Of a stretch of 64,000 nucleotides of DNA, positions 7,425 to 25,742 are shown one piece after another (the first letter of the stretch is position 1; every line of letters begins with the position of its first letter). The position numbers and the translations under genes are program-made. Under the pieces are notes generated by a model. The model was given only the letters and a program-made list of their open reading frames with translations, was not told where the DNA came from and did not search any database. The stretch is from positions 28,213 through 92,212 of the forward strand of contig JAHBZF010000003.1 of the NCBI GenBank assembly GCA_019635575.1, read 5' to 3'. This stretch comes from Pseudolabrys sp. Its GTDB lineage: Bacteria > Pseudomonadota > Alphaproteobacteria > Rhizobiales > Xanthobacteraceae.

Positions 7425-8357
7425 TCACCCTGCCTTGCAAAATGCCGCGCGCAATGCGGTGTAATCCTCGCGCAGCCTGGCGACGATGTCAGTCACCGGT
7501 TCGGACGCGGTCACGGCACCGACCGCCTGGCCCGCGCCCCAGATGTTCTTCCACGGCTTCGCCTTATCGGCCGAGGTGAAGTCCATCTTGCGCTCGGCGC
7601 GCAGCATCTCCGGCGTGAAGCCCGCGGCGGTGAGGCTTGGCAGCATCCAGTTGGCTGGTACGCCGGTGACGGCGGCGCTGGTGACGATGTCTTCCATGCT
7701 GACGGCGATGGTCATGGCCTTGCGATCCGGCTCGCCGAGGCTTTCTTGTGCGGCGAGGAAGCGTGTGCCCATGTAAGCGAAGTCGGCGCCGAGCGCCTGC
7801 GCCGCGAGAATGCTGCGCGCATCGGAGATCGCACCCGACAGCACGATCGGCCCGGACCAGAAACGCCGCACCTCGGCAACGAACGCGAACGGACTGTAGG
7901 AGCCGGTGTGGCCGCCTGCGCCGGCGCTGACCAGAACAAGGCCGTCCGCACCGGCCTCAATCGCCTTGCGTGCATGGACCGGCCGCGACACATCGGCGAA
8001 TACAAGCCCGCCGTAACCATGCACCGTGTCCAGCACCCGCGCGGGCGACCCGAGCGCGGTGATCACCAGCGGCGGCTTGTGGCGTTTGACGATCTCGATC
8101 TCGGCGTCGAAGCGCGCATAACTGCTGTGGCAGATCAAGTTAAGCGCCCAGGGAGCCGCGTCCCGCGTCTCCATCGAAATCCGCGCGCACCAGGCGTCGA
8201 GCGTGCCGAGCTCGCGCGCATTCGGCGCCGGAAAGCAGCCGATCACGCCGGCGCGGCAGGCGGCGATCACCATGTCCGGTCCCGAGATCAGGAACATTGG
8301 CGCGACGATCACCGGCAGCGTCATCCGCGCCCGCAGCGCCTCGAGCTTATTCGTCAC
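7425..8357 (-). CDS. Nitronate monooxygenase (2-nitropropane dioxygenase-like flavoprotein)
   Basis: A 310-residue FMN-dependent TIM-barrel enzyme. Family marks are PVIVAPMFLISGPDMVIAACRAG at the N-terminus, the AGAGGHTGSYSPFAFV glycine-rich/His segment (catalytic His region of NMO), SGAISDARSILAAQALGADFAYMGTRFLA (phosphate binding), and a Cys-poor C-terminus. NMOs oxidise nitronates to carbonyls plus nitrite, and many family members have other flavin-dependent roles. The GTG at 8357 is preferred because GGAGG precedes it by 5 bases. An ATG at 8414 lies inside the operator palindrome and would add 19 atypical residues. It is divergent from the acyl-CoA ligase, with a shared operator between them, so it probably belongs to the TetR regulon. 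Confidence 0.85.
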   Translation of the reverse strand: MTNKLEALRARMTLPVIVAPMFLISGPDMVIAACRAGVIGCFPAPNARELGTLDAWCARISMETRDAAPWALNLICHSSYARFDAEIEIVKRHKPPLVITALGSPARVLDTVHGYGGLVFADVSRPVHARKAIEAGADGLVLVSAGAGGHTGSYSPFAFVAEVRRFWSGPIVLSGAISDARSILAAQALGADFAYMGTRFLAAQESLGEPDRKAMTIAVSMEDIVTSAAVTGVPANWMLPSLTAAGFTPEMLRAERKMDFTSADKAKPWKNIWGAGQAVGAVTASEPVTDIVARLREDYTALRAAFCKAG

Positions 8358-8386: not shown

Positions 8387-8415
8387 TTGACGCGGCGCCC
8401 TTAAAACCATACACA
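8387..8415 (+). promoter_or_regulatory. Candidate promoter for the acyl-CoA ligase gene
   Basis: TTGACG (8387-8392) is followed after 17 bases by TACACA (8410-8415), a good -35 and a mediocre -10. The -10 overlaps the left half of the operator palindrome, so a bound repressor would block it. Confidence 0.35.
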
Positions 8416-8434
8416 TATGTATGGTTTTAAGGGC
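8397..8434. promoter_or_regulatory. 38-bp palindromic operator (TetR regulon site 1)
   Basis: A perfect inverted repeat with 17-base arms (8397-8413 and 8418-8434) and a 4-base centre, containing the core CATACA-N4-TGTATG at 8408-8423. It lies between the divergent nitronate monooxygenase and acyl-CoA ligase genes. The same core recurs at 10897, 17912 and 18084. Palindromes of this size and symmetry are typical of TetR dimers; the TetR gene at 10131-10751 is the obvious candidate. Confidence 0.75.
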
Positions 8435-8451
8435 TGGCCGGCGATTGTCAA
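8424..8451 (-). promoter_or_regulatory. Promoter of the nitronate monooxygenase gene
   Basis: On the minus strand TTGACA (8451-8446) is followed after 16 bases by TAAAAC (8429-8424). The operator core (8408-8423) begins at the next base, so a bound repressor would cover the transcription start. Confidence 0.5.
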
Positions 8452-8507
8452 ATCGATAGGTCGGCCGCAACCTCGTTCACGGTCGCTTTCTGGTGCTTGC
8501 TTCAACA

Positions 8508-10118
8508 ATGACCGAGCTTCATCCGCCCTGGCTGCGCGCCAGTCCCGACGACCCAGCGCTGACCGCGCTGCCGCAGATCTTGCGCCGCCACGCGCAGACG
8601 CGGCCGCGCGCGCCATGTGTGACGTTCGACGATGGTCGCTTGATCGACTACGCAGAAGCGTGGCGGCAGGCTCGCATCGCTGCCTCGGCCCTGCGGCGGC
8701 TCGGCGTCAAGCGCGGCGATCCGGTGCTGGTGTGGCTCCCGAACGGTCCGTTGATGATGCGGATGTGGTTCGCGCTCAACATTCTTGGCGCAATCCATAT
8801 CCCGATCAATGTCGCGCTGCGCGGTGGCGTGCTGCAGCACGTGCTCGACAACAGCGGCGCTGCGCTGATGGTCTGTCACCCCGATCTCGTCAGCCGGCTC
8901 GATGGGGTTGAGCCGAAATCGCTACGGCATCTGATCGTCTCGGGCGATTCGCTGCCGCTGTCGCGCTGGCCGGTATCGCCGGAGCGCGTGCTCGATGATG
9001 GCGACGCGGACGAGGTGTTCGCCGACGCGACACCGAGCGATCTCTGCACGGTGCTCTACACGTCAGGGACTACCGGCCAGTCCAAGGGCGTGCTGATCCC
9101 GTATACGCAGATGTACGCCTCCGGCTCCGCCGCGCACGGCTACATCACTGCGGATGATCGCATCTATGTGTTCACGCCGCTGTTTCACACGGTCGGCATG
9201 TCGGCGGTTTATGCGACGCTTACCGCCGGCGGCTGCGTGCATCTCGCCGAAAGCTTTCATGCGCAAACGTTCTGGGATGACGTCAAGCGCGCCGGCTGCA
9301 ACCGCATCCTCGGGCTGATCAGTTCGATGACGCTGTTTCTGGCGAAGTCGGTGCAGGACGATGCGCGCTCGCCGTTCGACTTCGCGATGATGTCGCCGAT
9401 CACCGAAGGGACCGCGACCTTCGCCAAGCGGCATGGCTTTCAGTATTTCTCGGCCTTCAGCATGACCGAGGCATCGGTCCCCATTCTCTCAGGGGTCGAC
9501 AGCACCGTGTGGGGCAGTTGCGGACGCGCGCGCACGGGCATCACGTGCCGCATCGTCGATGCCGACGACAATGACGTGCCGGATGGCGAGGTCGGGGAAC
9601 TGATCTTGCGCAGCGATGCGCCGGGCATGCTGTCGCCGGGTTACTGGAACGACAAAGAGGCGACCGGGAAGGCGTGGCGCAACGGCTGGTTTCATACCGG
9701 CGATGCGTTCCGCCGCGACGCCGGCGGCAACTTCTACTTCGTTGATCGGCTCAAGGATGCCATCCGCCGCCGTGGCGAAAACATCTCGACCGTCGAGGTG
9801 GAAAAGGAAATCCTCGCCTTCCCCGGCGTGATGGAAGTGGCTGTCGTCGGCGCCGAGACAGGCAACAACGACCAAGAGGTGCTGGCGGTAATCGCGCCGG
9901 TACCGGGACAGGCGATCGAACCGCTGGCGCTGATCGAGTTTCTGTCGGACCGTCTCGCGCATTTCATGATGCCGCGCTATGTGCGGATCATGCCGACCTT
10001 GCCGAAGACGCCGACCAACAAGGTGCGCAAGGCGGAATTGCGTGCCGCGGGGGTGACAGCGGATACCTGGGACGGCGAGCAGCACGGTGTGCGCATCCGC
10101 CGGCAGAAGCTCGCCTGA
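8508..10118 (+). CDS. AMP-forming acyl-CoA synthetase/ligase (ANL superfamily)
   Basis: A 536-residue adenylate-forming enzyme that activates a carboxylic acid with ATP and CoA. Visible motifs are the P-loop YTSGTTGQSKG, the FSMTEASVP region (A5-like), NGWFHTGDAFRRDAGG (A7/A8), and DRLKDAIRRRGENIST with a C-terminal catalytic Lys in PKTPTNKVRKAEL. It resembles the CaiC/fatty-acid/aryl-CoA ligase branch. The ATG at 8508 is chosen over an in-frame GTG at 8493; neither has a strong ribosome site. It is divergent from the nitronate monooxygenase over operator site 1 and convergent with the TetR gene, 12 bp away. The substrate is probably the aromatic or side-chain acid handled by this block. Confidence 0.9.
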   Translation: MTELHPPWLRASPDDPALTALPQILRRHAQTRPRAPCVTFDDGRLIDYAEAWRQARIAASALRRLGVKRGDPVLVWLPNGPLMMRMWFALNILGAIHIPINVALRGGVLQHVLDNSGAALMVCHPDLVSRLDGVEPKSLRHLIVSGDSLPLSRWPVSPERVLDDGDADEVFADATPSDLCTVLYTSGTTGQSKGVLIPYTQMYASGSAAHGYITADDRIYVFTPLFHTVGMSAVYATLTAGGCVHLAESFHAQTFWDDVKRAGCNRILGLISSMTLFLAKSVQDDARSPFDFAMMSPITEGTATFAKRHGFQYFSAFSMTEASVPILSGVDSTVWGSCGRARTGITCRIVDADDNDVPDGEVGELILRSDAPGMLSPGYWNDKEATGKAWRNGWFHTGDAFRRDAGGNFYFVDRLKDAIRRRGENISTVEVEKEILAFPGVMEVAVVGAETGNNDQEVLAVIAPVPGQAIEPLALIEFLSDRLAHFMMPRYVRIMPTLPKTPTNKVRKAELRAAGVTADTWDGEQHGVRIRRQKLA

Positions 10119-10130
10119 CGATCGCTTGGG

Positions 10131-10751
10131 TTATGCGGTTTGCTTACGGCGGGCCTGCGCGCCTGTGCCGAACACGCTGGACTGCGCTTTCAGCAGGCGT
10201 GCGCGACATTCGCTGATCTGCTTGTCGGTCATGCCTTCGCGCAGCAGGGATTCGCCGAGCGTATAGGCATAGCCGATCATCGACCAGTAATCGGCTTCGT
10301 TCTTGTCGGCGCCCGTCTCGGCGATCAAGCTGCGGGTGAAGTCGATCCGCTCGGCATCGACCGCGTCCACAACGCGCCGCGCCAGCGGATCGCGCCGCGC
10401 CCAGGCGCGGATCGCCAGTTCAAGCGCCGCCGCTTCGCGCGTGCTCTTGGTGCGCGGCGGCAGCTTGCGCAGACGTTCGAGCTGTTCGGCAGGCGACATC
10501 AGCCGGTCCTGGCGGATGCGCTCGACGATGCGCCGGGTCTGGCGCTCCTGCCAGGTTGTCAGGATCGCCTCGAGCAGTTCCGAGCGTGACTTGAAGTGCC
10601 AGTAAAAGCTGCCGCGGCTGACCTTGAGATCGTCGGCCAGCGGTTCGACGCGCACCGCGTCGATGCTGCGCTTCACCAGCCGGTGGGTCGCCGCCTCGAT
10701 CCAGTCCTCGCGCGTCAGCCGGCGCTTCTTCTCGGTATCCTGCAGGCTCAT
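10131..10751 (-). CDS. TetR family transcriptional regulator, proposed master regulator of the 7.4-22 kb block
   Basis: A 206-residue protein with an N-terminal TetR HTH (LTREDWIEAATHRL, then VEPLADDLKVSRGSFYWHFKSRSELLEAIL, residues about 12-60) and an alpha-helical ligand-binding C-terminus. It is divergent from the Bug receptor gene. Operator site 2 (10895-10914) lies in the shared control region, as expected for autoregulation. The same operator core occurs upstream of the ligase, the dioxygenase operon and the lower-pathway operon, so it likely represses all of them. The inducer is unknown; a CoA thioester or the aromatic acid itself is plausible given the adjacent ligase. Confidence 0.9.
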   Translation of the reverse strand: MSLQDTEKKRRLTREDWIEAATHRLVKRSIDAVRVEPLADDLKVSRGSFYWHFKSRSELLEAILTTWQERQTRRIVERIRQDRLMSPAEQLERLRKLPPRTKSTREAAALELAIRAWARRDPLARRVVDAVDAERIDFTRSLIAETGADKNEADYWSMIGYAYTLGESLLREGMTDKQISECRARLLKAQSSVFGTGAQARRKQTA

Positions 10752-10894
10752 GTCTGTCGCCGATCCCCGTTGCAGTCACCATGTCCGATTTGGGCGCGGT
10801 TGAGAAGCGGCTCCGCGCCGTCGCGATCCTGCCATCCGGAGGCTGCGGCGGCTTTGCGCCAGATCATTGACGTCGCCTTTGCCTTGTCATTGCA

Positions 10895-10914
10895 AACATA
10901 CATAAGTGTATGTT
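10895..10914. promoter_or_regulatory. Operator site 2 of the TetR regulon
   Basis: Perfect inverted repeat with 8-base arms AACATACA and TGTATGTT and the 4-base spacer TAAG. It has the same CATACA-N4-TGTATG core as site 1. It lies between the TetR gene (start 10751, minus) and the Bug receptor (start 11003, plus). Confidence 0.75.
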
Positions 10915-11002
10915 ATTCTGACGGTCGCCGATACGGCCCAGTCAGGCCGTGCGTAATGACAGACCGGCCTCGAGCCGGCACATCGATCAGGGGAGGACCG
11001 GA

Positions 11003-11980
11003 ATGCGGATCGCCGCCGTCGTCATCGCTTTGCTTGCGTCGCTGGGATGGGCCGGACCAGGGTCCGCGCAAGGCAGCGGCGGAACCAGCAAGGTGCTCCG
11101 CATCGTCGTGCCGTTTGCGCCCGGTGGGTCGAACGATGTGGTGGCGCGCATGCTGGCGCAGACCTGGACCGGCAAGGTCGATTCCAGCATCGTCGTCGAG
11201 AACAAGACCGGCGCGGGTGGAAACATCGGCACCGAGTTCGTGGCAAAGGCGGAACCGGACGGTCAGACGCTGTTGCTCGTCGCGAACCAGCTCACCATGG
11301 CGCCGGTGTTCAAGACCAAGATCAACTACGACCCGAAGAGCCTCGTGCCGGTGGCCAAGATCGGTTCGCAGCCGGTGGTCATGGTGGTGCGCAAGGATTT
11401 GCCGGCGTCGAACCTCCGGGAATTTGTCGAACTGGCGAAAAAGCGCAGCAACACGGAGCCTTTGACGTTCGGTTCGCCGGGCTTCGGCTCGCCGCATCAG
11501 GTGTTCTTCGAGCAGATGCAGCGCGACCTTGGCGTCAAGATGGTGCATGTGCCGTTCCGCGGTATCGCGCCGGCGGTGACCGAAGTGTTGAGTGGCCGCA
11601 TCGACATGACCTTCGCCACGGAAAATTCCGCCGCCGGCCTTGTCGCCGACAACAAGGTGAAGGCGCTCGCCGTGCTCGGACCTTCGCGCGTGAAGATGTT
11701 GCCGCAATTGCAGACGTCCGCCGAGGCCGGTTATCCGAAGCTGCGCGCCGGATTCTGGTATGCGCTCGTCGCGCCGCCGCACACGCCGAAGGCAATCGTC
11801 GACCGTTACAATGCTCTGGCCGAAGAAGACCTGAAGAATCCGCAATTCGTCGCCGACCTCGCCAAGCGCGGCATCAATCCGGAAGGCGGTTCGGCCGATG
11901 CCTTCGCCAAGGAGGTTGCGGGCGAATTCGCTCAATGGCAGCAACTGGCCGATCAGGGTCTGGCGATCGACAGCCAGTAG
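11003..11980 (+). CDS. Bug-family periplasmic solute-binding protein (TctC-like)
   Basis: A 325-residue receptor. A signal peptide covers residues 1-22 (MRIAAVVIALLASLGWAGPGSAQ). The mature protein starts with VLRIVVPFAPGGSNDVVARMLA, the Bug signature, followed by ENKTGAGGNIGTEFVAKAEPDGQTLL. Bug proteins bind carboxylates and serve tripartite tricarboxylate transporters or act as sensors. ATG 11003 follows GGGGAGGA by 5 bases and removes an 18-residue extension that precedes the signal peptide. The CoA-transferase follows after 15 bp, suggesting co-transcription. No TctA/TctB permease genes are in the window. Confidence 0.93.
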   Translation: MRIAAVVIALLASLGWAGPGSAQGSGGTSKVLRIVVPFAPGGSNDVVARMLAQTWTGKVDSSIVVENKTGAGGNIGTEFVAKAEPDGQTLLLVANQLTMAPVFKTKINYDPKSLVPVAKIGSQPVVMVVRKDLPASNLREFVELAKKRSNTEPLTFGSPGFGSPHQVFFEQMQRDLGVKMVHVPFRGIAPAVTEVLSGRIDMTFATENSAAGLVADNKVKALAVLGPSRVKMLPQLQTSAEAGYPKLRAGFWYALVAPPHTPKAIVDRYNALAEEDLKNPQFVADLAKRGINPEGGSADAFAKEVAGEFAQWQQLADQGLAIDSQ

Positions 11981-11995
11981 CGCGGAGATCATTCA

Positions 11996-13216
11996 ATGCA
12001 GGGGTGTCTGGACGGATTGCGCGTCCTCGATCTCACGCGCGTGCTGGCGGGGCCATGGTGTACGCAGAACCTCGCCGATCTCGGCGCCGAGGTGATCAAG
12101 ATCGAGCGGCCCGGCGTCGGCGACGAGACCCGGCTCGCCGGTCCGCCGTTCCTCAAAGACCGCAATGGCGAGGACACCCCCGACGCGGCTTATTACCTCA
12201 GCGCCAATCGCGGCAAGAAATCCGTGGCGGTGAACATCGCGACGCCGGACGGGCAGGCGATCATCCGCAAGCTCGCCGCGGTGAGCGATATCCTTGTCGA
12301 GAATTACAAGGTCGGCGATCTCGCCAAATACGGGCTTGGCTATGACGATCTCAAGACGATCAATCCGCGGCTGATTTACTGCGCGATCACCGGTTACGGG
12401 CAAACCGGGCCTTATCGCGCGCGCGCCGGTTACGACTTCGTGTTCCAGGCCATGGGCGGCCTGATGAGCATCACCGGCGAGCGCGAGGGCACGCCGCAGA
12501 AAGTCGGCGTCGCGTTCTCCGATCTGATGACCGGCATGTATGCGACGGTAGCAATCCTCGCGGCGCTCCAGCAGCGCGAGCGTACCGGCGAAGGCCAGTT
12601 CATCGACCTTGCTTTGCTCGACGTGCAGGTGGCTTCGCTCGCCAACATGAACCTCAATTATTTCTGCTCCGGCAAGACGCCGCCGCGCATGGGCAACGCG
12701 CATGCGAATCTGGTGCCGTATCAGGTGTTTGCCTGCCGGGACGGGCATATCGTCGTCGCTGCCGGCAATAGCAATCACTTCCGGCAGCTCTGCGTCGCGC
12801 TCGGCATGCCGGCGCTGGCGGACGATCCGCGCTTTGCCGCCAATCCCGGCCGCGTCCGCAACCGTGATGCGCTGATCGCCATTCTCGAAGCGGCGTTTCT
12901 CAGTCGCACGGTCAAGGACTGGATGGCGGTGCTCGACGGCAGCGATGTGCCGTGCGCGCCGATCAACACGATCCCGCAGGTGTTCGAGGACCCGCAAGTC
13001 AAGGCGCGCGGACTGGAGATCAAGGTCGAGCATCCGCTCGCCGGTCCGATCTCGCTGGTGGCAAGCCCGATGCGCTTTACCAACGCGGCGACGAACTATG
13101 TCGCGCCGCCACTTCTGGCGCAGCACACCGATGCGGTGCTCGGCGATCTGCTCGGCTACAGCGCCGCCGATCTCGCGGCACTGTCGGACAAGGGCGTCAT
13201 CGCCCGGCGTTCTTAA
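11996..13216 (+). CDS. Class III CoA-transferase (CaiB/BaiF family)
   Basis: A 406-residue enzyme of the formyl-CoA transferase type. N-terminal GLRVLDLTRVLAGPWCTQNLADLGAEVIKIERPGVGDETR is the family signature. The catalytic Asp is expected in GVAFSDLMTGMYA (about residue 177). Such enzymes move CoA between a donor thioester and an acceptor acid. It sits 15 bp behind the Bug receptor and is convergent with the dioxygenase alpha gene. The two stop codons share the palindromic TTAA at 13213-13216, a 4-bp overlap. Together with the acyl-CoA ligase and the thioesterase it suggests a CoA-bound intermediate in this pathway. Confidence 0.92.
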   Translation: MQGCLDGLRVLDLTRVLAGPWCTQNLADLGAEVIKIERPGVGDETRLAGPPFLKDRNGEDTPDAAYYLSANRGKKSVAVNIATPDGQAIIRKLAAVSDILVENYKVGDLAKYGLGYDDLKTINPRLIYCAITGYGQTGPYRARAGYDFVFQAMGGLMSITGEREGTPQKVGVAFSDLMTGMYATVAILAALQQRERTGEGQFIDLALLDVQVASLANMNLNYFCSGKTPPRMGNAHANLVPYQVFACRDGHIVVAAGNSNHFRQLCVALGMPALADDPRFAANPGRVRNRDALIAILEAAFLSRTVKDWMAVLDGSDVPCAPINTIPQVFEDPQVKARGLEIKVEHPLAGPISLVASPMRFTNAATNYVAPPLLAQHTDAVLGDLLGYSAADLAALSDKGVIARRS

Positions 13217-14526
13217 CCCAGCGGCGTCGTCATCAACTCCAGCCAGCGGCGATAGAACGCGCGCTGGTTGGCATCGTTGTATTTGCGCAGATGGATCTCG
13301 CCCTTGAGATCGTCGTGCTCGATCTTGCTGGTGAGGCCGAGGCCGTAATGCAGCTTCTGCCGGCGGGTGACGACGCCGGTGTTGATCTGCGTCGCGTGCT
13401 CCCAGTTCTCGCCGTCGTCCATTTCCAGCGTGCCGGACGGTGAGAAGGTGCGCATCACACCCTTGCGGTACTTTTCCTTCAACTCGAACGGGATGTTCTT
13501 GTTGACCAGCACCCAGGTATGGACCTCGGTGAGATGCGGGCCTTTTGGCAGCCAGGTGCGGAACGCATTGTGGCCGGCGAGGAACGAGAAGTTCGGGAAC
13601 GTGGTCGTCGACGACACCGAGCCGATCATGCGCGAGCGAATCTTGCCGAGCCGTTCCGCGACTTCTTCCTCGCGTGCGCGCAGATAATCGACCACGTCCT
13701 GTTCGCCGAGCGTCATGGCATTGCCGACCATGTCGAGGCCGAACTGCCAGCCGTGGCCGTTCGTATTCGCGTGATACGAGCGTTCCTGATTGATCTTGCC
13801 GACCGACTGGCCGAGCATCGCCACCGCGCCGGAATTGTGCGTCCAGGCGGCGTGATAGGAATCGCCGATGAAGTTTTCCGCCGGGAATTTCCAGTTGCAC
13901 TTGATGTGCGACTTGATGTTGCCGTCGATGAACTCAGTGCCGTCTGCATCATTGTCGAGCAGGATGTCGAGATACCATCGGAAATCTCCGAGATAGTCGT
14001 CGAGCGACGGCGCCTGTTCGTCGAAGGTCGCAAACACGAGGCCCTTGTAGGTGCCGACGCGCGCCGGATGCAGGCCGAGATCCTGACTGTTGAAGTTCGG
14101 ACAGGTCTCTTCGTACAGCTCCTCGGCAGGCATGCCGAGCAGGCGGCCGTCATTACCGAACGACCAGCCGTGATAGTTGCAGGTGAACCGCCGCGCGTTG
14201 CCGGCCTCGGCGAAACAGACGCGGTTGCCGCGATGCGGGCAGGAATTGAGGAACACACCGATCTTGTTGTTGCGACCGCGCGACACGATCACCGCATCCT
14301 CGCCCATATAGGTGGTGAGGAAGTCGCCGGGATTTTGAATCTGGCTCTCATGTGCGACGAACAACCAGCAGCGCGCGAAGATACGCTCCAGCTCCATCTG
14401 ATAGATGCCGTCGTCCCAGAAGATGCGGCGGTCGATTGCGCCGTTGTCGAGGTCGACCATGGCGCGCAACTCCGCGTCGTCGGGAAACGCCGGGGCGCGG
14501 GATCGGCTGCGGGTGACATGGTTCAT
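13213..14526 (-). CDS. Rieske aromatic-ring dioxygenase, alpha (catalytic) subunit
   Basis: A 437-residue terminal oxygenase subunit. The Rieske [2Fe-2S] ligands are Cys96-Pro-His98 and Cys116-x2-His119. The mononuclear iron site is in the segment NWKFPAENFIGDSYHAAWTH, with Asp222, His225 and His230. The enzyme inserts both atoms of O2 into an aromatic ring to give a cis-dihydrodiol. Start at ATG 14526; the frame is open further upstream but without similarity. It is the last gene of a minus-strand operon (ferredoxin, beta, dehydrogenase, reductase, thioesterase, alpha), an unusual place since alpha normally leads. Closest in type to the BphA/HcaE group; the substrate is not readable. Confidence 0.93.
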   Translation of the reverse strand: MNHVTRSRSRAPAFPDDAELRAMVDLDNGAIDRRIFWDDGIYQMELERIFARCWLFVAHESQIQNPGDFLTTYMGEDAVIVSRGRNNKIGVFLNSCPHRGNRVCFAEAGNARRFTCNYHGWSFGNDGRLLGMPAEELYEETCPNFNSQDLGLHPARVGTYKGLVFATFDEQAPSLDDYLGDFRWYLDILLDNDADGTEFIDGNIKSHIKCNWKFPAENFIGDSYHAAWTHNSGAVAMLGQSVGKINQERSYHANTNGHGWQFGLDMVGNAMTLGEQDVVDYLRAREEEVAERLGKIRSRMIGSVSSTTTFPNFSFLAGHNAFRTWLPKGPHLTEVHTWVLVNKNIPFELKEKYRKGVMRTFSPSGTLEMDDGENWEHATQINTGVVTRRQKLHYGLGLTSKIEHDDLKGEIHLRKYNDANQRAFYRRWLELMTTPLG

Positions 14527-14548
14527 GGCGATACTCCTGCGCGAGCGT

Positions 14549-15013
14549 TCAGCTTTGAGCGGGTTGCGGTGATGGTTTGCGGGCGGCGGCGATGTCCGGC
14601 GGGATGTGGAACACCGCCGTTGCGGTCGCGACCTTGCGATCGCCGACCCGCAGATGACCGGATGCGAAGGCAAGCGATCGGGTGATCCTGCTGATCTCGG
14701 ATTCGCCGATCAACGTTTCGCCGATGCGTGCGCCAGCCACCAGATTGCAGTTGAGCTGTACCGTTGGGCAGATCGCCCGTGTGCCGACATTGGCGCTGAC
14801 ATGGGTGCCGAGCGCGATGTCGAGCAGCGTCATCAGCAGGCCACCGGCGGCGAAGCCCGCAGCGTTGGTGTGCTCGCCGCCCAGCGTCATCATCAGCGTC
14901 GAACCAGCGTCGGTATATTTGATGAAAACCGGACCGTTGCGATAGACGAAACCGCCGGGCTGGCCATGCAGGACATAGCCTTCGGGAATGGCGATGGCGG
15001 GTGTTTCACTCAT
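14549..15013 (-). CDS. PaaI-type hotdog-fold acyl-CoA thioesterase
   Basis: A 154-residue hotdog-fold protein. The characteristic GGEHTNAAGFAAGGLLMTLLDIALGTHV segment holds the catalytic Asn/Asp-type residues of PaaI-like thioesterases, followed by VQLNCNLVAGARIGETLIGE and a C-terminal strand. It would hydrolyse an aryl- or acyl-CoA. The start overlaps the end of the reductase gene (ATGA, 15010-15013), and alpha follows after 22 bp, so it is embedded in the dioxygenase operon. Its presence in a ring-dioxygenase operon fits the nearby ligase and CoA-transferase. The reading frame extends upstream into the reductase gene but that part is a shadow. Confidence 0.85.
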   Translation of the reverse strand: MSETPAIAIPEGYVLHGQPGGFVYRNGPVFIKYTDAGSTLMMTLGGEHTNAAGFAAGGLLMTLLDIALGTHVSANVGTRAICPTVQLNCNLVAGARIGETLIGESEISRITRSLAFASGHLRVGDRKVATATAVFHIPPDIAAARKPSPQPAQS

Positions 15014-16155
15014 GCGGAGACCTTGAGGGGCGAGGTGGACAGCGTGCGATGCGCTTGCCGCAGATCGCGCGCGCGATTGACGCCGATCACGGCGCGGGTT
15101 TCGCCGCCGGTGCTGTAGCGCCATAGCGGATGCGGTTCGGTCTCGGCCGCGAGCAGCGTCAGGCTCGGATGCGGCAAACCGGCGACCTGGATCAGCTTGT
15201 CGTATTGTTCCGACCAGAACCATGGGGCTTCCGGCGCGGATACCGGCGCGCCGCAGATGGCTTGCGCTGCGCGGTGTCCTTGCGCGATCGCGTGCTTCCA
15301 GCTCTCCAGACGCTGCGTGTCATTGCCGATGCGGATACGCGCCACATCGCCGATGGCGAAGATGGCGGGATCGTCGGTGCGGCCGAGATCGTCGGTGAGG
15401 ACGCCGTCCTGACAGGCGAGGCCGGCGCGACGCGCCAGCGCGTCATGCGGTGTCAAGCCGATGGCGACAACCGCCATATCGAACATCGCGGATGTGCCAT
15501 TCCACTGTGCAGTGATGCCGTCCGGCGAGGCCGTGATGCTGGCGGCGGTCCCGGTGATGATCCGGACGCCGTGGCTGTTGTGGAGATCGTGCAGATACGC
15601 GCTGATCTCGGCCGGCACCGAGCGCGCGCACAGACGCTCTGCCGCTTCGAGCAGCGTGACCTCGCAGCCACGGCCGCGCAGCGCCGCGGCGGTTTCAAGG
15701 CCGAGCCAGCCGCCGCCCAGCACCAGCGCATTGCGCGCCACTTGCGATGCGCGGTCGATGGCGCGGGCGTCGTCGAGCGTGCGCAGCACGAAGACGCGGC
15801 GGCCATCGGGTGGGAGCGACGGCAATACGCGCGCGCCGCCGCCGGTCGCCAGCACTAGGGTATCGTAGGGCAGGGTTGTGCCGTCGTTTAGCGTCAGTGT
15901 CTTGCTGGCGCGATCAATGGCGGACGCCGCTGTGCCGAGGCGAAGCACGATGGACTTCTCTGTCAGCTCTTCGCGCTTGACGATGGGACTCGGTGCGCCA
16001 CCCAACTCCTTCGACAGCGGCGGCCGGTCATAAGGCTCGTGCGGTTCGTCAGACAGCAGCGTCACATCGCCGGCAAGGCCGTATTCGCGCAGCGCCAGCG
16101 CGCAGTTCACGCCCGCCTGTCCCGCTCCGACGATGATGACTCTGCCATCGCGCAT
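15010..16155 (-). CDS. FAD-dependent ferredoxin reductase of the ring dioxygenase
   Basis: A 381-residue pyridine-nucleotide disulfide-family flavoprotein of the BphA4/HcaD type, passing electrons from NADH to the Rieske ferredoxin. The FAD site is VIIVGAGQAGVNCALALRE at residues 5-23, the NAD site LVLGGGWLGLETAAALRGRG near the middle, and the second FAD motif AIFAIGDVAR near residue 270. The EPYDRPPLSKE segment is characteristic of the family. The start is ATG 16155, 18 bp after the dehydrogenase stop. The stop overlaps the thioesterase start. It is slightly shorter than BphA4 (about 400 residues). Confidence 0.92.
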   Translation of the reverse strand: MRDGRVIIVGAGQAGVNCALALREYGLAGDVTLLSDEPHEPYDRPPLSKELGGAPSPIVKREELTEKSIVLRLGTAASAIDRASKTLTLNDGTTLPYDTLVLATGGGARVLPSLPPDGRRVFVLRTLDDARAIDRASQVARNALVLGGGWLGLETAAALRGRGCEVTLLEAAERLCARSVPAEISAYLHDLHNSHGVRIITGTAASITASPDGITAQWNGTSAMFDMAVVAIGLTPHDALARRAGLACQDGVLTDDLGRTDDPAIFAIGDVARIRIGNDTQRLESWKHAIAQGHRAAQAICGAPVSAPEAPWFWSEQYDKLIQVAGLPHPSLTLLAAETEPHPLWRYSTGGETRAVIGVNRARDLRQAHRTLSTSPLKVSA

Positions 16156-16173
16156 GGTGTGTGCCGGCGTCCG

Positions 16174-16980
16174 CTACAGCGGGCGGATGCCGATGCCTCC
16201 GTCGCTCATCAGGATTTCGCCGGTCATGGCTCGCGCATTGTCGCGGCTTGCCAGCAGCACATAAAGCCCGGCGTGATCCTCCGGCTCCTGCGCGAAGCGC
16301 AGCGGCACGGCGTTGCCGATGCGCTCGGCCGCCTCGGCGCGCTTGTCGGACATGTGGCGGTTGTCGTGGCCGAGGGATGCGGTGCCGCTGAGATTGGTGA
16401 GCGTGCCGCCGGGCCCGACGCCATTGACGCGCACATCGGGCGCGAATTCCGCCGCAAGCTGCCGGATCAGACCCGCGACCGCGTGCTTGCTTGCGGTATA
16501 GAGCGGGCCGCCGCCGCCCGCGTGCAGCGAGGCGACCGAAGCGGTGAAGATCATGCAGCCCTGCGAGGCGATCAGTGCCTCATGCGCCGCGTGCGCCGCA
16601 TAGAGATAACCGCGCAGATTGATCGCGAAGATTTCCTCGAACGTCGCCGCCAGCATTTCCGGCGTGTAGCCCTTCAGCGGGCGATGGAAATCGAACACGC
16701 CGGCATTGCCGACCAGTGTGTCGAGCTTGCCGAAGGTCTTGAGCGCAAGGGCGACCGCTTGTGCGTGCGTGGCGTAGTCGCGCACATCGCCGGCGACTGT
16801 CGCAATCTTTTTCGGGTGTTTCGCCTTGAGCGCGGCGAGGCCGTCGGCATTGCGGTCGACGACGACGACGCCGGCCGCGCCCTCGTCGAGATAGCGCAAC
16901 ACGACGGCGCGGCCGATGCCGCTTTCTCCGCCGGTGACGATCGCGACATTGCCGTCGAGCCAGCCCATTTGCCCGCTCAC
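16174..16980 (-). CDS. Short-chain dehydrogenase, probable cis-dihydrodiol dehydrogenase (BphB/HcaB-like)
   Basis: A 268-residue classical SDR. The NAD site is VTGGESGIGRAV (residues about 14-26), NAGVFD lies in the substrate lid region, and the catalytic Ser and Tyr-x3-Lys sit in TASVASLHAGGGGPLYTASKHA. In BphB/HcaB-type enzymes this oxidises the cis-dihydrodiol to a catechol; gene context between dioxygenase subunits supports that role. The start overlaps the beta-subunit stop by 4 bp (16977-16980). The GGESGIGR and VNGVGPGGT motifs resemble dihydrodiol dehydrogenases, but SDR specificity cannot be proved by eye. Confidence 0.87.
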   Translation of the reverse strand: MSGQMGWLDGNVAIVTGGESGIGRAVVLRYLDEGAAGVVVVDRNADGLAALKAKHPKKIATVAGDVRDYATHAQAVALALKTFGKLDTLVGNAGVFDFHRPLKGYTPEMLAATFEEIFAINLRGYLYAAHAAHEALIASQGCMIFTASVASLHAGGGGPLYTASKHAVAGLIRQLAAEFAPDVRVNGVGPGGTLTNLSGTASLGHDNRHMSDKRAEAAERIGNAVPLRFAQEPEDHAGLYVLLASRDNARAMTGEILMSDGGIGIRPL

Positions 16981-17549
16981 AGGAAGATGTTGAGGTTCTT
17001 CGCCAGCATCACCGTCTGGGTGATGTAAATCTCGCGTTTCGACAGGCGGAAGTGGCCTTCGCCGATGCGGCGCAGCCGATCCTTGCGCCGCGCGATCAGC
17101 CAGTCTTCCTCGGTCTCGTTGCGGCCGCGCACCGCGAGGATCACCGAATGCACCACATATTCGTCGGTGCGCTCGATCGGCTCGACCTCGATGTTGGAGA
17201 CCATGTAGCAGGTGCGGGTCGGCGGATCCTCGGCCCAGGCGGTCTCGTGCAGCGAGCGGGTGACGCGGCGACGCAGGTTGAGCAGATCGTCGTCGAAATG
17301 TGCCATGCGCGTATGCGAGTAACGCGGCGCCTTATCCTTTCGGTAGCGGGCCTGCACGCCGGGCATCCAGTAATGGATATCCTCGGTCATGGTGCCGAGC
17401 CATTCCTCGTAACGTTCTTCCTCCAGCAGCCGCGCCTCGCGGTAGAGAAACTGTTCGATTTCGAACACGATTTCCCGTGGGGCCAGCGGCATCGGGCCCT
17501 GAACCTTGGGGTTGCGCAGGATCGGGTTGTCACCGAGGATTACAGCCAT
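16977..17549 (-). CDS. Rieske aromatic-ring dioxygenase, beta subunit
   Basis: A 190-residue SnoaL-like structural subunit of the dioxygenase. Family features are EIEQFLYREARLLEEERYEEWLGTM near the N-terminus, DIHYWMPGVQARYR, and the C-terminal RRKDRLRRIGEGHFRLSKREIYITQTVM with the acidic/aromatic tail NLNIFL. Length is normal for BphE/HcaF. ATG 17549 lies 4 bp after the ferredoxin stop. The open frame extends 50 residues upstream as a shadow of the ferredoxin gene. The stop overlaps the dehydrogenase start. Confidence 0.92.
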   Translation of the reverse strand: MAVILGDNPILRNPKVQGPMPLAPREIVFEIEQFLYREARLLEEERYEEWLGTMTEDIHYWMPGVQARYRKDKAPRYSHTRMAHFDDDLLNLRRRVTRSLHETAWAEDPPTRTCYMVSNIEVEPIERTDEYVVHSVILAVRGRNETEEDWLIARRKDRLRRIGEGHFRLSKREIYITQTVMLAKNLNIFL

Positions 17550-17553
17550 CGGA

Positions 17554-17895
17554 TCAGTCCTTTGCTGGGCGGCCCGGCCGCGCCGTCGAGATGTCGGCCC
17601 AGACCGCGCCGTCCTGGACCTGCGCGGTGAAGGTCTGGATCGGATCGGTGGCCGGGAAACACAGAGCCTTGCCGCTGCAGAGATCGAAACGCCCGTCATG
17701 AACCGGACAGCAGACCTCGTGCCCTTCGAGCCACCCTTCGGTCAACGATGCCTTGGCGTGGCTGCAGGTGTCCTGGGTGACGAAGAACGTGCCGCCGACA
17801 TTGAACACGGCGATCGGCTCGATGCCGTCGAGGGCGACGGCACGGCCTTCGCCGTCCGGCACGGCGGCGATGTCGATCAGCCGGGTCAGGGCCAT
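17554..17895 (-). CDS. Rieske-type ferredoxin of the ring dioxygenase (BphF/HcaC-like)
   Basis: A 113-residue [2Fe-2S] electron carrier between the reductase and the dioxygenase. Rieske ligands are Cys44-Ser-His46 and Cys63-Pro-Val-His66. Length matches BphF. It is the first gene of the dioxygenase operon, directly behind a readable promoter (17928-17956) and operator site 3 (17912-17927). Since it leads the operon, repression at site 3 would switch the whole six-gene unit. Confidence 0.93.
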   Translation of the reverse strand: MALTRLIDIAAVPDGEGRAVALDGIEPIAVFNVGGTFFVTQDTCSHAKASLTEGWLEGHEVCCPVHDGRFDLCSGKALCFPATDPIQTFTAQVQDGAVWADISTARPGRPAKD

Positions 17896-17911
17896 GGCGT
17901 CATCCCTAAAA

Positions 17912-17927
17912 CATACACTACTGTACT
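17912..17927. promoter_or_regulatory. Operator site 3 of the TetR regulon (one degenerate half)
   Basis: CATACA-CTAC-TGTACT. The left half matches the consensus exactly; the right half keeps TGTA but not the outer two bases. It abuts the -10 box of the minus-strand promoter and lies 17 bases upstream of the ferredoxin start codon. Confidence 0.6.
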
Positions 17928-17956
17928 GTCGTATGACGTCGGACGAAAGCTGTCAA
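17928..17956 (-). promoter_or_regulatory. Promoter of the ring-dioxygenase operon
   Basis: On the minus strand TTGACA (17956-17951) is followed after exactly 17 bases by TACGAC (17933-17928). The -35 is a consensus match and the -10 is partial. Transcription would begin inside operator site 3. Confidence 0.6.
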
Positions 17957-18083
17957 TGCGGCTGCGGGGCGGCCGCGTCCGGACGTCCGGTAAAAGGCCC
18001 ATAAACACCAGTTTCCGCTGGAAAGTTTGGGTTCTGCAGGAGGGCGGCGGCGTTTTGAACGGCGCCCCTGCCGGAAATGAAAC

Positions 18084-18099
18084 TATACAGACCTGTATT
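18084..18099. promoter_or_regulatory. Operator site 4 of the TetR regulon
   Basis: TATACA-GACC-TGTATT: inner arms ATACAG/CTGTAT are a perfect inverted repeat. It differs from sites 1 and 2 only at the outermost base of each half. It lies 35 bases upstream of the hydratase start. I could not identify a convincing -35 for the plus-strand promoter. Confidence 0.6.
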
Positions 18100-18134
18100 G
18101 AAATGCTAGACGACCCAACCGAGGAGCGAATGCC

Positions 18135-18938
18135 TTGCTGACACCCGACCAGATCGACACCATCGCCCGGCAGCTGGACGCGGCGGAACGCACCAAGGTG
18201 CAGATCGGCCATCTGTCGTCCGCCTATCCGGGGATGACCATCGAAGACGGCTATGCGGTGCAGCGGGCCTGGGTCGCGCTCAAGCTGAAAGCCGGCCGCA
18301 CCCTCAAGGGCCATAAAATCGGGCTGACCTCGCGGGCGATGCAGCAGGCGTCGCAGATCAACGAGCCGGATTACGGCGCGCTGCTCGACGACATGTTCTT
18401 TCCTGAAGGCTCCGACATTCCGATGGCGCGGTTCATCGAGCCGCGCGTCGAGGTCGAACTCGCCTTCATCCTGCGCAGGCCATTGAAGGGGCCGGGCTGC
18501 ACGCTGTTCGACGTGCTGGAGGCGACGGACTATGTGACGCCGGCGGTGGAGATCATCGACGCGCGTATCCAGCGTATCGATCCCAAGACCAAGGCGATGC
18601 GGCGGGTGATGGACACCATCTCCGACAACGCGGCGAACGCCGGCATCGTTCTCGGCGGTCGTCCGGTGAAGCCGAACGACGTCGACCTGCGCTGGGTGTC
18701 GGCGCTCTGCTACCAGAACGGCGTGATCGAGGAGACCGGCGTCGCCGCCGGCGTGCTCAATCATCCCGCCAACGGCATCGCCTGGCTCGCCAATCGGCTC
18801 GGGCCGCATGGCATCACGCTGGAGCCGGGACAGGTGGTGCTGGCCGGTTCGTTCACGCGGCCGGTGTTCGTCAAGGCCGGCGACACGTTCCATGTCGATT
18901 ATGGGCCGCTCGGCGGCATCGCGTTCCGGTTCGTATGA
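18135..18938 (+). CDS. 2-oxo-hept-4-ene-1,7-dioate hydratase family protein (HpaH/MhpD-like)
   Basis: A 267-residue FAH-fold hydratase. The [32 protein letters not shown] segment and the metal-binding [14 protein letters not shown] (Glu-x-Glu) are as in HpaH/HpcG and MhpD. It adds water to a 2-hydroxy-dienoate produced by ring cleavage. The start is TTG 18135, supported by GAGGAG 9 bases upstream. An out-of-frame ATG at 18130 reads only ATG-CCT-TGC-TGA. It is the first gene of a tightly packed operon (hydratase, aldolase, extradiol dioxygenase, hydrolase) divergent from the ring-dioxygenase operon. Sequence type is closer to HpaH, while partners suggest an MhpD-like role. Confidence 0.88.
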
Positions 18939-19711
18939 ACATGGCCGATACGCTCGACAACGCCTTCAAGAAACGTCTCGCCGCGGGCGAAAGCCTGATC
19001 GGCTTGTGGGTCGCGCTGGCGGAAAGCTACACCACGGAAATCTGCGCCGGAGCGGGCTTCGACTGGCTGCTGCTCGACGGCGAGCACGGGCCGAACGATG
19101 TGCGCTCGCTGCTGCGGCAGTTGCAGGCCATGGCGCCGTATCCGGTGCATCCGGTGGTGCGGCCGCCGGTCGCCGATGTCGACCTGATCAAGCAATATCT
19201 CGACATCGGCGTGCAGACGCTATTGTTGCCGATGATCGATGACGCGGAGCAGGCGGCCGAGATGGTACGCGCGACGCGTTATCCGCCGGACGGCGTGCGC
19301 GGCGTCGGCGCGGGCCTCGCGCGGGCGGCGCGCTGGGGCCGCACGGCGGATTATCTCAAGCGCGCCGGCAGCGAGATGTGCCTGCTGTTGCAGGTCGAAT
19401 CCCGCGCGGGCATCGCTAACGCGGAAGCGATCGCGGCGGTGCCGGGCGTCGATGGCGTGTTCATCGGCCCGTCCGATCTCGCGGCGGCGTTCGGCCATAT
19501 CGGCCAGACGACGCATCCCGAGGTGGTCGCGGCAATCGAAAATGGCATCGCCGCCATTCGCCGTCAGGGCAAGGCCGCCGGCATCCTCGCGGTCGATGAG
19601 CCGGTGGCGCGCCGCTATCTCGAACTCGGCTGCGGCTTCGTCGCGGTCGGCACCGATGTCAGCCTGCTCGCGCGCAACGCCGAGCGGCTGGCGAAAACCT
19701 ACAAGAAGTAA
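18935..19711 (+). CDS. 4-hydroxy-2-oxo-heptane-1,7-dioate aldolase family protein (HpaI-like)
   Basis: A 258-residue class II pyruvate aldolase of the HpcH/HpaI family. The expected pattern is present: [14 protein letters not shown] (catalytic His), [17 protein letters not shown] (metal Glu) and [13 protein letters not shown] (metal Asp). It cleaves a 4-hydroxy-2-oxo acid to pyruvate and an aldehyde. It overlaps the hydratase by ATGA (18935-18938). With an MhpB/MhpC-type upper part the expected substrate is 4-hydroxy-2-oxopentanoate, normally served by MhpE; HpaI-type aldolases are known to be promiscuous, so a replacement is plausible. No acetaldehyde dehydrogenase (MhpF) follows. Confidence 0.92.
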
Positions 19712-19731
19712 ATACAAGCCGGGAGACGCCG

Positions 19732-20685
19732 ATGGCACGGATCGAAGGCTTTGTCGCCATGTCCCACTCGCCGTTCTGGGACACGAACTCTCCCGTCAGC
19801 GGTCCCGGCGAAACGTTCGTGCGCGGTGTTGCCGAGGCGCGCGCCGCCGTGGCGCGGATCAAAGCCGATGCGGTGGTGATCTTCGGGCCGGACCACTTTC
19901 GCAATTTCTTCTACGACGTGCTGCCGCCGTTCTGTATCGGGCTCGAAAGCGTCGTCGGGTTCGGCGATTACGGCACGCCAAAAGGCGAACTGCCGCTCGA
20001 CCGCGCGCTGGCGAGGGCGATCCAGGTAGGCGTCACCGAAGCCGGTTTCGATCCGGCGGTGTCGCTGAAGATGGGCATCGACCACGGACTGTCGCAAGCC
20101 TATGCGGTGCTCGAACCGTCGTTGAAAACGCCGATGGTGCCGATCATGGTCAATGCCAGTGGCTCGCCGCGGCCGACGATGCGCCGTTGCCACGCTTTCG
20201 GCAAAGCGGTCGGCGACGCGATCCGCGCCATGCCGGATAACAAATGCGTGCTGATCCTCGCGTCGGGCGGGCTGTCGCACTGGATCCGTCCGGTGTCGGA
20301 AGAAGACCCGGCAACCACGGCGGAGACGCGTGACTACGTTATCAACGGCCGCGAGCGCGTGGTCGAATATTCCGCCGCGCGCGATGCGTCGCTGCAGGAG
20401 CGGATCAAGCAGGGCGTCGATGGCCGCGTGAACGCGGAGTGGGATCGCTGGTTCCTCGACACGCTGTCGTCTGGCGATCTGTCGCCGATCCTCGCACTGA
20501 CCGACGACGTGTTGCAGGAGAATGCCGGAAACGGCTCGCACGAATTGCGGGCCTGGGTGGCGGCGATGGGTGCGTGGGGCGGCCCGGTCGCGCCGATCGC
20601 TTACGAGCCGGTGCGGAGTTGGGTCACCGGCATGGGTTGTCTCGGCGGTTTCGCCGACGGTATCGCGACCGGTCGGGCGGCATGA
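19732..20685 (+). CDS. mhpB: LigB-type extradiol dioxygenase, MhpB-like (2,3-dihydroxyphenylpropionate 1,2-dioxygenase family)
   Basis: A 317-residue type II extradiol dioxygenase. Length and motifs fit MhpB: AMSHSPFW with His12, FGPDHFRNFFYD with His55, GIDHGLSQ with His118 and SGGLSHW with His183, which correspond to the iron-binding and catalytic His positions of the family. MhpB opens the ring of 3-(2,3-dihydroxyphenyl)propionate next to the diol. It follows the aldolase by 20 bp with a GGGAGA ribosome site. The hydrolase overlaps its end. It is the best clue that the pathway handles a catechol with a carboxyalkyl side chain. Confidence 0.9.
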   Translation: MARIEGFVAMSHSPFWDTNSPVSGPGETFVRGVAEARAAVARIKADAVVIFGPDHFRNFFYDVLPPFCIGLESVVGFGDYGTPKGELPLDRALARAIQVGVTEAGFDPAVSLKMGIDHGLSQAYAVLEPSLKTPMVPIMVNASGSPRPTMRRCHAFGKAVGDAIRAMPDNKCVLILASGGLSHWIRPVSEEDPATTAETRDYVINGRERVVEYSAARDASLQERIKQGVDGRVNAEWDRWFLDTLSSGDLSPILALTDDVLQENAGNGSHELRAWVAAMGAWGGPVAPIAYEPVRSWVTGMGCLGGFADGIATGRAA

Positions 20686-21569
20686 CCATGAATGCACCCA
20701 TGGCTCTGACCGATCATCGTAGCGTCTGGACGCATCTGCTGCGCACGCCGTTTACGCAGGGATTCGTCGACGCGGGCGGCATCCGCACACGCTATGTGCA
20801 GGCGGGCGACCGCAACGCGCCGGCCGTGGTCATGATCCCCGGCACGGCGAGCAGCTGGGAATCCTTCTGCGCGAATATCGACGCGCATGCGCAGCATTTC
20901 AACGTGCTGGCGCTCGATCTGGTCGGCAGCGGCTTCAGCGACAAACCCGACCGTGATTACGAGATACCCGTCTACGTGACCCATGTTCTCGCCTTCATGG
21001 ATGCCATGGGCGTGCGCAAGGCGTCACTGATCGGCGTCTCGCTCGGTGCCTGGATCGCCTCGCGCATCGCCGTCGATCATCCCGATCGCGTCGAGAAGCT
21101 CGTGCTGCTCGCGGCGTCCGGCATGATCTCGCATACGCAGACCATGGGCCGTATTCGCGGCACGCGCACCAAGGCGGTGGACGATCCGAGCTGGCCGAAC
21201 GTGCAGTCGGTGTTCGAACCGCTGATCTATCGCCCGGAGGATCGGATCGACGACATCATCGCGGTGCGTCAGGCGGCCTATCGCCAGCCGGAAATGCGGC
21301 GCGCCATGGAGCACATCCTCTGCCTGCAGAATCCCGAGATACGCGCCCGCAACCTGATCGCCGAGGACGAGTGGCGCGGCATTCAGGCCCCGGCGTTGAT
21401 CGTCGTCGCGCCGGACGATTCGGAGATGTTCTTCCAGACCGCGACGCGCGCGGCGCAACTCATGCCGAAAGCACAGACGCTGGAAATCCGGCAGGTGAAG
21501 CACTGGCCACATTTCGAGCGGCCGGACCTGTTCAATCCGGCGAGCATCGCGTTCCTGCGCGGAGTTTGA
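20682..21569 (+). CDS. Alpha/beta hydrolase, MhpC-like meta-cleavage product hydrolase
   Basis: A 295-residue alpha/beta-fold C-C hydrolase. The oxyanion region is IPGTASSWESF, the nucleophile elbow GVSLGAW, the Asp lies in VAPDDSEMF, and the His in VKHWPHFERPDLF. MhpC-type enzymes cleave the 2-hydroxy-6-oxo-dienoate formed by the extradiol dioxygenase to 2-hydroxypentadienoate plus a carboxylic acid. The start at ATG 20682 overlaps the mhpB-like stop (ATGA); ATG 20688 is an alternative. Context directly behind mhpB is the main reason for the MhpC assignment; the hydrolase family alone is less specific. Confidence 0.85.
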   Translation: MTMNAPMALTDHRSVWTHLLRTPFTQGFVDAGGIRTRYVQAGDRNAPAVVMIPGTASSWESFCANIDAHAQHFNVLALDLVGSGFSDKPDRDYEIPVYVTHVLAFMDAMGVRKASLIGVSLGAWIASRIAVDHPDRVEKLVLLAASGMISHTQTMGRIRGTRTKAVDDPSWPNVQSVFEPLIYRPEDRIDDIIAVRQAAYRQPEMRRAMEHILCLQNPEIRARNLIAEDEWRGIQAPALIVVAPDDSEMFFQTATRAAQLMPKAQTLEIRQVKHWPHFERPDLFNPASIAFLRGV

Positions 21570-23032: not shown

Positions 23033-23097
23033 GTTCCCCCTCCTCGGAAAGATTGACGCTTGATGGAATGAGCCTCCTGTGGCGGAGGTCTTGGTCG

Positions 23098-25010: not shown

Positions 25011-25038
25011 CGTGACCTCACTGCGTCGAAAGAAGTAT

Positions 25039-25074
25039 GTGCATACACAAATAGAATTTGCGTATACCTGTCAA
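25039..25074 (-). promoter_or_regulatory. Promoter/operator of the FAH-dioxygenase-Bug operon
   Basis: A minus-strand TTGACA occupies 25074-25069. Just downstream, 25043-25052 and 25056-25065 form an inverted repeat with 10-base arms (one mismatch, 3-base spacer) of the type ATTTGYGTAT. No good -10 at ideal spacing is visible (TATTTG at 15 bases). The left arm extends to the 14-mer found again at 25201-25214. Probably bound by the GntR regulator at 26741, which is inference. Confidence 0.45.
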
Positions 25075-25200
25075 CACCAAACGGAATGGGGACAGGGAAG
25101 GCCCGTTTTATCGGCAAAAATCCAGAATATGTCGTGGGTCCGGTTCCGCCCCGATCGCCGTTGGCGCGTCTCTCGGTTGCGTCTCTCGGGAGATTTCGCT

Positions 25201-25720: not shown

Positions 25721-25742
25721 TCTGACGCACAGCAGCCTGAAT

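Follow-up and report, generated by a model that had tools for sequence, protein, structure and literature searches.

A predicted TetR regulon for an aromatic catabolic gene block in Pseudolabrys sp. and a candidate one-residue determinant of its operator type

Does a single TetR-family repressor control the several gene units of a catabolic block in the alphaproteobacterium Pseudolabrys sp.? The question arises from a 64,000-nucleotide stretch of contig JAHBZF010000003.1 (assembly GCA_019635575.1, positions 28,213 to 92,212 of the forward strand; hereafter the window), in which four copies of the palindrome CATACA-N4-TGTATG stand before genes of an apparent aromatic pathway. A preliminary description of the window had proposed that these copies define one regulon. 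Our analysis indicates that the four sites are very probably operators of the TetR protein encoded at 10131-10751, which would regulate the catabolic units of the block, and points to residue 46 of that protein as a candidate determinant of the operator that it reads.

The positions of the four copies (sites 1 to 4, Table 1) and their match to the palindrome were found to be exactly as first described, and no fifth copy with two or fewer mismatches is present in the window. The claim that every copy lies in a control region likewise holds: all four sites are intergenic and 16-145 nt from gene starts. Counted on the sequence, with three of the start codons checked separately, site 1 lies 50 nt from the GTG of the nitronate monooxygenase (NMO)-like gene (8357, minus strand) and 84 nt from the ATG of the ligase gene (8508, plus strand), and site 2 lies 145 nt from the TetR ATG (10751, minus strand) and 90 nt from that of the Bug receptor gene (11003, plus strand). 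Site 3 is 16 nt from the ferredoxin ATG (17895, minus strand) and site 4 is 35 nt from the TTG of the hydratase gene (18135, plus strand). Site 2 (10897-10912) is the copy that adjoins the TetR gene, a palindromic operator beside its own gene as in TetR repressors. The palindrome at site 1, a feature absent from the preliminary description, extends well beyond the 16-bp core seen in the other operators and is identical in the congener described below.

Four sites with at most two mismatches compare with about 0.48 expected per 64 kb, and no exact copy was found in 100 first-order Markov windows. Given local composition, the probability of at least one such site is 0.003-0.005 for each of the three gaps, and two sites in the gap at 17896-18134 were obtained in none of 20000 simulations. 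When three mismatches are allowed the window contains 11 matches, seven of them with three mismatches, a total that is not unusual against shuffled sequence (mean 7.2, with 11 reached in 10 of 100 shuffles).

The regulator has an N-terminal TetR_N helix-turn-helix domain (Pfam PF00440, 39.2 bits against a cut-off of 24.0). Its AlphaFold2 model has nine helices in an all-helical, two-domain fold (mean predicted local distance difference test score, pLDDT, 91.3), and the recognition helix of the model (residues 46-52) begins with Arg46. In the PDB, the 50 best matches listed (best E 1.9e-4) are annotated as transcription regulators, of the TetR type or otherwise.

Relatives of this protein provide a further line of evidence. 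We surveyed 111 of 115 loci encoding them, the remainder being dropped for an identical TetR stretch or for less than 200 bp of upstream sequence. Upstream of TetR, 84 exact copies of CATAC-N6-GTATG fall within 33,264 positions, whereas the 1,428,806 positions elsewhere contain 4. A similar site (at most one mismatch of ten) is found within 300 bp upstream of TetR at 96 of the 111 loci; the same operator type adjoins TetR-relative genes in both Alpha- and Betaproteobacteria. A matrix built from 31 sites beside relatives with arginine at position 46 (Arg-type; window and congener left out, 16 positions, spacer ignored) ranks sites 1 to 4 as the top four in the window (24.9, 24.9, 17.4 and 16.3 bits); the fifth-ranked match scores 11.5. 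At the score of the weakest site, 0.08 matches per 64 kb are expected (60 first-order Markov windows), so that by mismatch count and by matrix such sites are rarer by chance than they are here.

The association extends to the enzymes. TetR and a dioxygenase alpha subunit occur together at 7 of 79 genome loci (L085-L163) and in 2 of 8 further stretches (L164 and L165); L118 and L165, with identical upstream sequence, are one cluster, giving eight distinct clusters. At L098, L109 and L139 operators stand right before dioxygenase or hydrolase genes, and at L085, L087, L103 and the plasmid locus L189 they occupy the gap between TetR and a divergent hydrolase-dioxygenase operon. In three of these gaps (L085 9803-9824, L087 9807-9828 and L189 11795-11816) the operator is a double one, CATACACATACGTATGTGTATG, a 22-bp palindrome of two overlapping sites offset by 6 bp, on which two dimers could possibly sit.

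We searched 43 genomes of the genus, that of the window included, for the dioxygenase (E 1e-130 or better), and a single other genome, G015, has it at this threshold. All four sites are kept in this sole congener with the block. The 149-bp gap between the NMO-like and ligase genes is 75% identical overall, with about 60 bp around the operator unchanged; at site 2 the operator differs by a single spacer base, its half-sites being intact; and sites 3 and 4 lie in unchanged stretches of a ferredoxin-hydratase gap whose middle has diverged. Three of the four sites thus sit in DNA unchanged in the congener. Taken together, conservation, the relatives' matrix and the recurrence of the operator type beside relatives and at the same dioxygenase cluster make the one-repressor regulon a well-supported prediction.

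The two imperfect sites would be expected to bind more weakly, and it might be argued that TetR binds the exact sites (8408 and 10897) only. Those at 17912 and 18084 would then be weak or decaying remnants, and some other regulator would govern the dioxygenase and meta-cleavage operons. Their two mismatches each, and scores 7-9 bits lower, fit such a view. However, these sites rank third and fourth in the window with a 5-bit gap below them, none of the 20000 simulations placed two sites in their gap, both are unchanged in the congener across a gap that has diverged between them, and some relatives have operators at the dioxygenase promoter. We therefore regard this alternative as unlikely.

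Residue 46 bears on which regulator reads the sites. In a first set of relatives, the sixth base of the half-site was A in 45 cases and G in 9 for Arg rows, and G in 144, T in 30, C in 29 and A in none for rows with lysine (Lys-type); column 46 has the highest mutual information with operator type among 206 columns. In a second set, fetched after the rule had been seen, A was found at 9 of 9 half-sites in Arg rows and at 0 of 31 in Lys rows. Across the combined 116 proteins with sites, Arg46 goes with CATACA and Lys46 with CATAC[G/T/C] with no discordant row, related rows not being independent of one another. Arg rows show only CATACA (TpG on the other strand) and CATACG (CpG). Plasmids of P. 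putida S12 and Burkholderia cenocepacia each encode a regulator that belongs to neither set, and both of these are Arg-type with CATACA sites. At the clusters with Lys-type regulators (L098, L103, L109 and L139), the dioxygenase-cluster sites carry Lys-type bases; one A-type half-site in a Lys-type locus (L109, 14847) is nearly 5 kb from TetR. In Caballeronia (L103 9049-9070) a regulator nested in an Arg clade has Lys46, and its double operator, of the same form as those above, reads CATACC/CATACG where they have CATACA; residue and operator may have been exchanged together in nature.

These counts depend on some definitions. The operator-state threshold was 0.5 in the first-set count (under which the Arg row L087 is non-A) and 0.39 in the first-set tree test, and in the combined set any A half-site sufficed, a loosening under which L087 (2 A of 5) counts as A. 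The entry for the window (Arg, two A half-sites) was made manually, and that for its congener, L084, is nearly identical to it; of the 45 A half-sites of the first set, 4 come from this pair. Residue 46 is unreadable in L057, L069 and L079 of the first set, which were left out of the tree test, and 49 of 52 rows of the second set were used (one duplicate, one short and one broken row dropped). A site is lacking in 13 rows of the first set (7 Lys, 6 Arg) and 29 rows of the second (16 Lys, 12 Arg, 1 Val), and these were counted neither for nor against the rule. Among those of the second set, 10 of the 12 Arg rows have a different helix, SRSSFYW[YF]F, one SRTSFYWHF and one the usual RGSFYWHF, and 8 of the 16 Lys rows have KGGFYRRF. 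Each trait changes 7 times on the tree, and the well-supported independent pairs are concordant in 3 of 3 cases in the first set (p 0.25) and 2 of 2 in the combined set (p 0.5). The tree-based test of the rule has little power and, with so few independent contrasts, row counts are not event counts. On balance we lean towards a rule in which Arg46 would require a pyrimidine before the contacted G (TpG, hence CATACA, or less often CpG) and Lys46 would exclude TpG (CATACG/T/C). One residue would then act as a natural operator switch in this TetR subfamily that keeps paralogues of one genome apart, such as the Arg-type window protein and the Lys-type C24 protein, and regulators of the same dioxygenase cluster would have swapped class together with their operators, as in L103.

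The genome of the window encodes two TetR paralogues, on C24 and C144 (43% and 35% identity), both with Lys46; a third, very remote match (23% identity) is unreadable at position 46. Since the two readable paralogues are Lys-type, the window TetR is the best candidate to read the CATACA sites. That they belong instead to one of these paralogues, the C24 member of which adjoins its own CATAC-N6-GTATG palindrome, is very unlikely, given that no CATACA half-site was found upstream of the Lys-type regulators surveyed (0 of 203 half-sites, then 0 of 31). The C24 locus (L043 8136-13877, G000 C24) pairs its Lys-type regulator with the operator CATACTTTCAAGTATG, and its neighbours encode a FAD-binding monooxygenase-like protein, an enoyl-CoA hydratase and an AMP-forming ligase; it is perhaps another aryl-CoA catabolic cluster. 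Finally, that the palindromes are bidirectional terminators, recombination sites or mobile-element ends repeated incidentally at promoters would account for the unusually long 17-nt arms at site 1, but is scarcely credible when none of the 8 terminator-like matches in the region falls at an operator site and the core recurs beside TetR genes across classes.

In the regulon that we favour, a TetR dimer would bind each 16-bp palindrome close to the transcription start, the Arg46 side chain reading the 5'-TpG step of each half-site (TGTATG), and would act by repression rather than activation. It would silence the ligase/NMO pair, its own gene together with the Bug receptor and CoA-transferase genes, the ring-dioxygenase operon and the meta-cleavage operon, until a compound of the pathway releases it. 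That compound would probably be an aromatic acid or the CoA thioester of an aryl or acyl group.

The regulon probably reaches beyond the block. Pattern matching over the genome (an assembly that is 84% complete) placed 10 of 14 sites with at most two mismatches outside it, and the expectation that genomic sites would be confined to the block is probably wrong. The one-mismatch site C144:53759 precedes a gene for a Peripla_BP_6 binding protein; branched-chain-type permease and ATPase genes come next, and an AMP-forming ligase is encoded upstream. In the congener its half-sites are identical and its spacer is changed; at a second C144 site, 53661, only the right half is kept. In a Ralstonia relative (L092), the gene divergent from TetR encodes a protein of the Peripla_BP_6 kind, as at C144. 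We consider C144:53759 probably an extra operator of the same regulon, before an ATP-binding cassette (ABC) transporter binding-protein gene. We judged three of the outside sites to be gene-start sites, namely both of those preceding the C144 transporter gene and the one that adjoins the C24 TetR, and treated the other seven as chance, among them a one-mismatch site (C207:7738) shared with the congener. A mechanical check for open reading frames (ORFs) finds all ten covered by some ORF of at least 120 aa on one strand or the other and, for the sites on C151 and C1, an ORF start no more than 250 nt away as well.

Several observations weigh against the proposed regulon. Sites 3 and 4 each carry two mismatches. 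The 14 genomic sites compare with 7 for a reversed control pattern, and most of those outside the block may therefore be chance. The block occurs in one congener only, where the three genes measured are 96-99% identical at the DNA level, so that the conservation argument rests on the gaps. That complete congener has three TetR matches, namely the orthologue, a Lys-type paralogue and a third too remote for position 46 to be read; as the window assembly is 84% complete, a second regulator with the same operator may exist there. Amongst the relatives, L164, L165 and L118 have both TetR and dioxygenase, yet no good site was found in the vicinity of their TetR genes, and at L109 the stretch immediately before TetR lacks one too. 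Lastly, a consensus promoter scan of the region gave one sigma-70-like site, with 1.4 expected by chance; it lies at 10863-10890, directed towards tetR, and adjoins site 2 with no overlap, and none was detected at sites 1, 3 or 4. Promoter overlap is not established, the sole match being off site 2 and the other three sites having none.

The nearest named enzymes to those of the block (Table 1) are those of 3-phenylpropionate/cinnamate breakdown, but most score below curated cut-offs, so the pathway substrate may be another compound. Dioxygenase alpha does not reach the HcaE equivalog cut-off (374 bits against 830), and the dihydrodiol dehydrogenase scores 332.1 for PRK06200 (cut-off 330) and 306.6 for the HcaB equivalog (cut-off 450). 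The hydratase and aldolase match the HpaH (465 against 351.5 bits) and HpaI (385.5 against 368.8 bits) equivalogs, matches that do not imply a pathway substrate. Dioxygenase alpha also resembles biphenyl and benzene dioxygenases of known structure, and a 58% identical alpha subunit is encoded on plasmid pRHL2 of Rhodococcus jostii RHA1, with an hpaH gene in the same cluster. For the NMO-like gene, an in-frame ATG at 8387 is an alternative start, and the longest ORF would begin within the site 1 operator.

Table 1. Putative operators and genes of the catabolic block in the window
Feature	Position	Strand	Sequence	Mismatches to CATACA-N4-TGTATG	Context or support
Site 1, putative operator	8408-8423		CATACACATATGTATG	0/12	Between divergent NMO-like and ligase genes
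Extended palindrome centred on site 1	8397-8434		GCCCTTAAAAC (flanks)		Perfect 17-nt arms, 4-nt centre
Site 2, putative operator	10897-10912		CATACATAAGTGTATG	0/12	Between divergent tetR and Bug-receptor genes
Site 3, putative operator, half-degenerate	17912-17927		CATACACTACTGTACT	2/12	Upstream of ferredoxin gene
Site 4, putative operator, outer bases changed	18084-18099		TATACAGACCTGTATT	2/12	Upstream of hydratase gene
Nitronate monooxygenase-like flavoprotein	7425-8357	-			Pfam NMO, E 5.7e-21; GTG start preceded by GGAGG
AMP-forming acyl-CoA ligase	8508-10118	+			Pfam AMP-binding, E 2.7e-62
TetR-family regulator, 206 aa	10131-10751	-			Pfam TetR_N, E 5.9e-10
Bug/TctC-type solute-binding protein	11003-11980	+			Pfam TctC, E 3.7e-59
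Class III CoA-transferase	11996-13216	+			After Bug receptor gene; Pfam CoA_transf_3, E 2.4e-132
Putative six-gene ring-dioxygenase operon	13213-17895	-			NCBIfam
Dioxygenase alpha	13213-14526	-			Ring-dioxygenase operon; NCBIfam
Hotdog thioesterase	14549-15013	-			Ring-dioxygenase operon; NCBIfam
Ferredoxin reductase	15010-16155	-			Ring-dioxygenase operon; NCBIfam
Dihydrodiol dehydrogenase	16174-16968	-			Ring-dioxygenase operon; NCBIfam
Dioxygenase beta	16977-17549	-			Ring-dioxygenase operon; NCBIfam
Ferredoxin	17554-17895	-			Ring-dioxygenase operon; NCBIfam
Putative meta-cleavage operon (HpaH hydratase, HpaI aldolase, MhpB-like extradiol dioxygenase, alpha/beta hydrolase)	18135-21569	+			NCBIfam

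Beyond the block, the stretch at 22067-27385 encodes a second Bug receptor, a catechol-2,3-dioxygenase-like protein (below cut-off), a fumarylacetoacetate hydrolase-type protein and, at 26687-27385, a GntR-type regulator; it has no site with two or fewer mismatches. Elsewhere, the neighbours of some other TetR relatives (four loci scanned with Pfam, 10 proteins) are ABC-transporter periplasmic binding proteins, a thiolase and an electron-transfer flavoprotein, as well as a TonB receptor, a resistance-nodulation-division (RND) pump and an MlaD protein, and the annotated locus of one further relative contains transporter and CoA-ligase genes. In the relatives L224 and L214 the matched stretch is interrupted by an in-frame stop codon (TGA and TAG).

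A literature search with the operator strings found no paper, and among the matches listed no title or abstract start describes this operator or cluster. The regulon would be new but ordinary in kind, whereas the residue-46 rule may come as a surprise to a specialist. The work offers a concrete predicted regulon for an aromatic pathway found in both Alpha- and Betaproteobacteria, with a probable transporter target added outside the block. The one-residue rule would predict the operators of unstudied regulators from sequence. It could also be used to tell paralogous regulators apart in silico, and as a source of orthogonal repressor-operator pairs for biosensors.

How does this system compare with those already known? 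Two regulators were considered and rejected, PheR as a member of the IclR family (PMC13273656) and PA3973 for its different motif (PMC9736018). In the published structures of MtrR with its operators, R44 contacts 5'-YpG-3' steps, usually TpG and once CpG (PMC8053128). This residue stands in the same [TS]-R-G-x-x-Y-W-H register as Arg46, which goes with TpG and sometimes CpG, so the pairing of Arg46 with CATACA may be explicable in the same way; MtrR differs in being an efflux regulator with other operators, and the sequence match covers query residues 5-64 only. At the level of the regulon, FadP and LiuQ are TetR-family regulators whose catabolic regulons, each of several operons, were predicted by comparative genomics (PMC5343134). 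The likeness, which is one of description rather than of compared motifs, is that comparative analysis in each case assigns one such regulator multiple operators in front of catabolic genes, whereas FadP and LiuQ concern fatty-acid and branched-chain amino-acid breakdown in Betaproteobacteria.

Amongst pathways, the hca/mhp system of E. coli (3-phenylpropionate) is alike in its HcaE/F/C/D/B-like dioxygenase set, MhpB-like dioxygenase and alpha/beta hydrolase (NCBIfam labels), but most of the window subunits fall below equivalog cut-offs and HpaH/HpaI take the place of MhpD/E. The regulator also differs, being TetR-type in the window block, whereas hca and mhp are under other families. The hca regulator, HcaR, belongs to another family. 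MhpR is listed as IclR-type (PMC13273656). The cluster on B. cenocepacia plasmid pBcn842-1 (L189), with its homologues in Cupriavidus, Paraburkholderia and Caballeronia, is alike in having a TetR gene with the operator in the adjoining gap, opposite a divergent run of hydrolase, extradiol dioxygenase, ferredoxin, dioxygenase, dehydrogenase and NMO genes. There, however, one double operator serves one gene run, whereas the window has four operators distributed before separate units.

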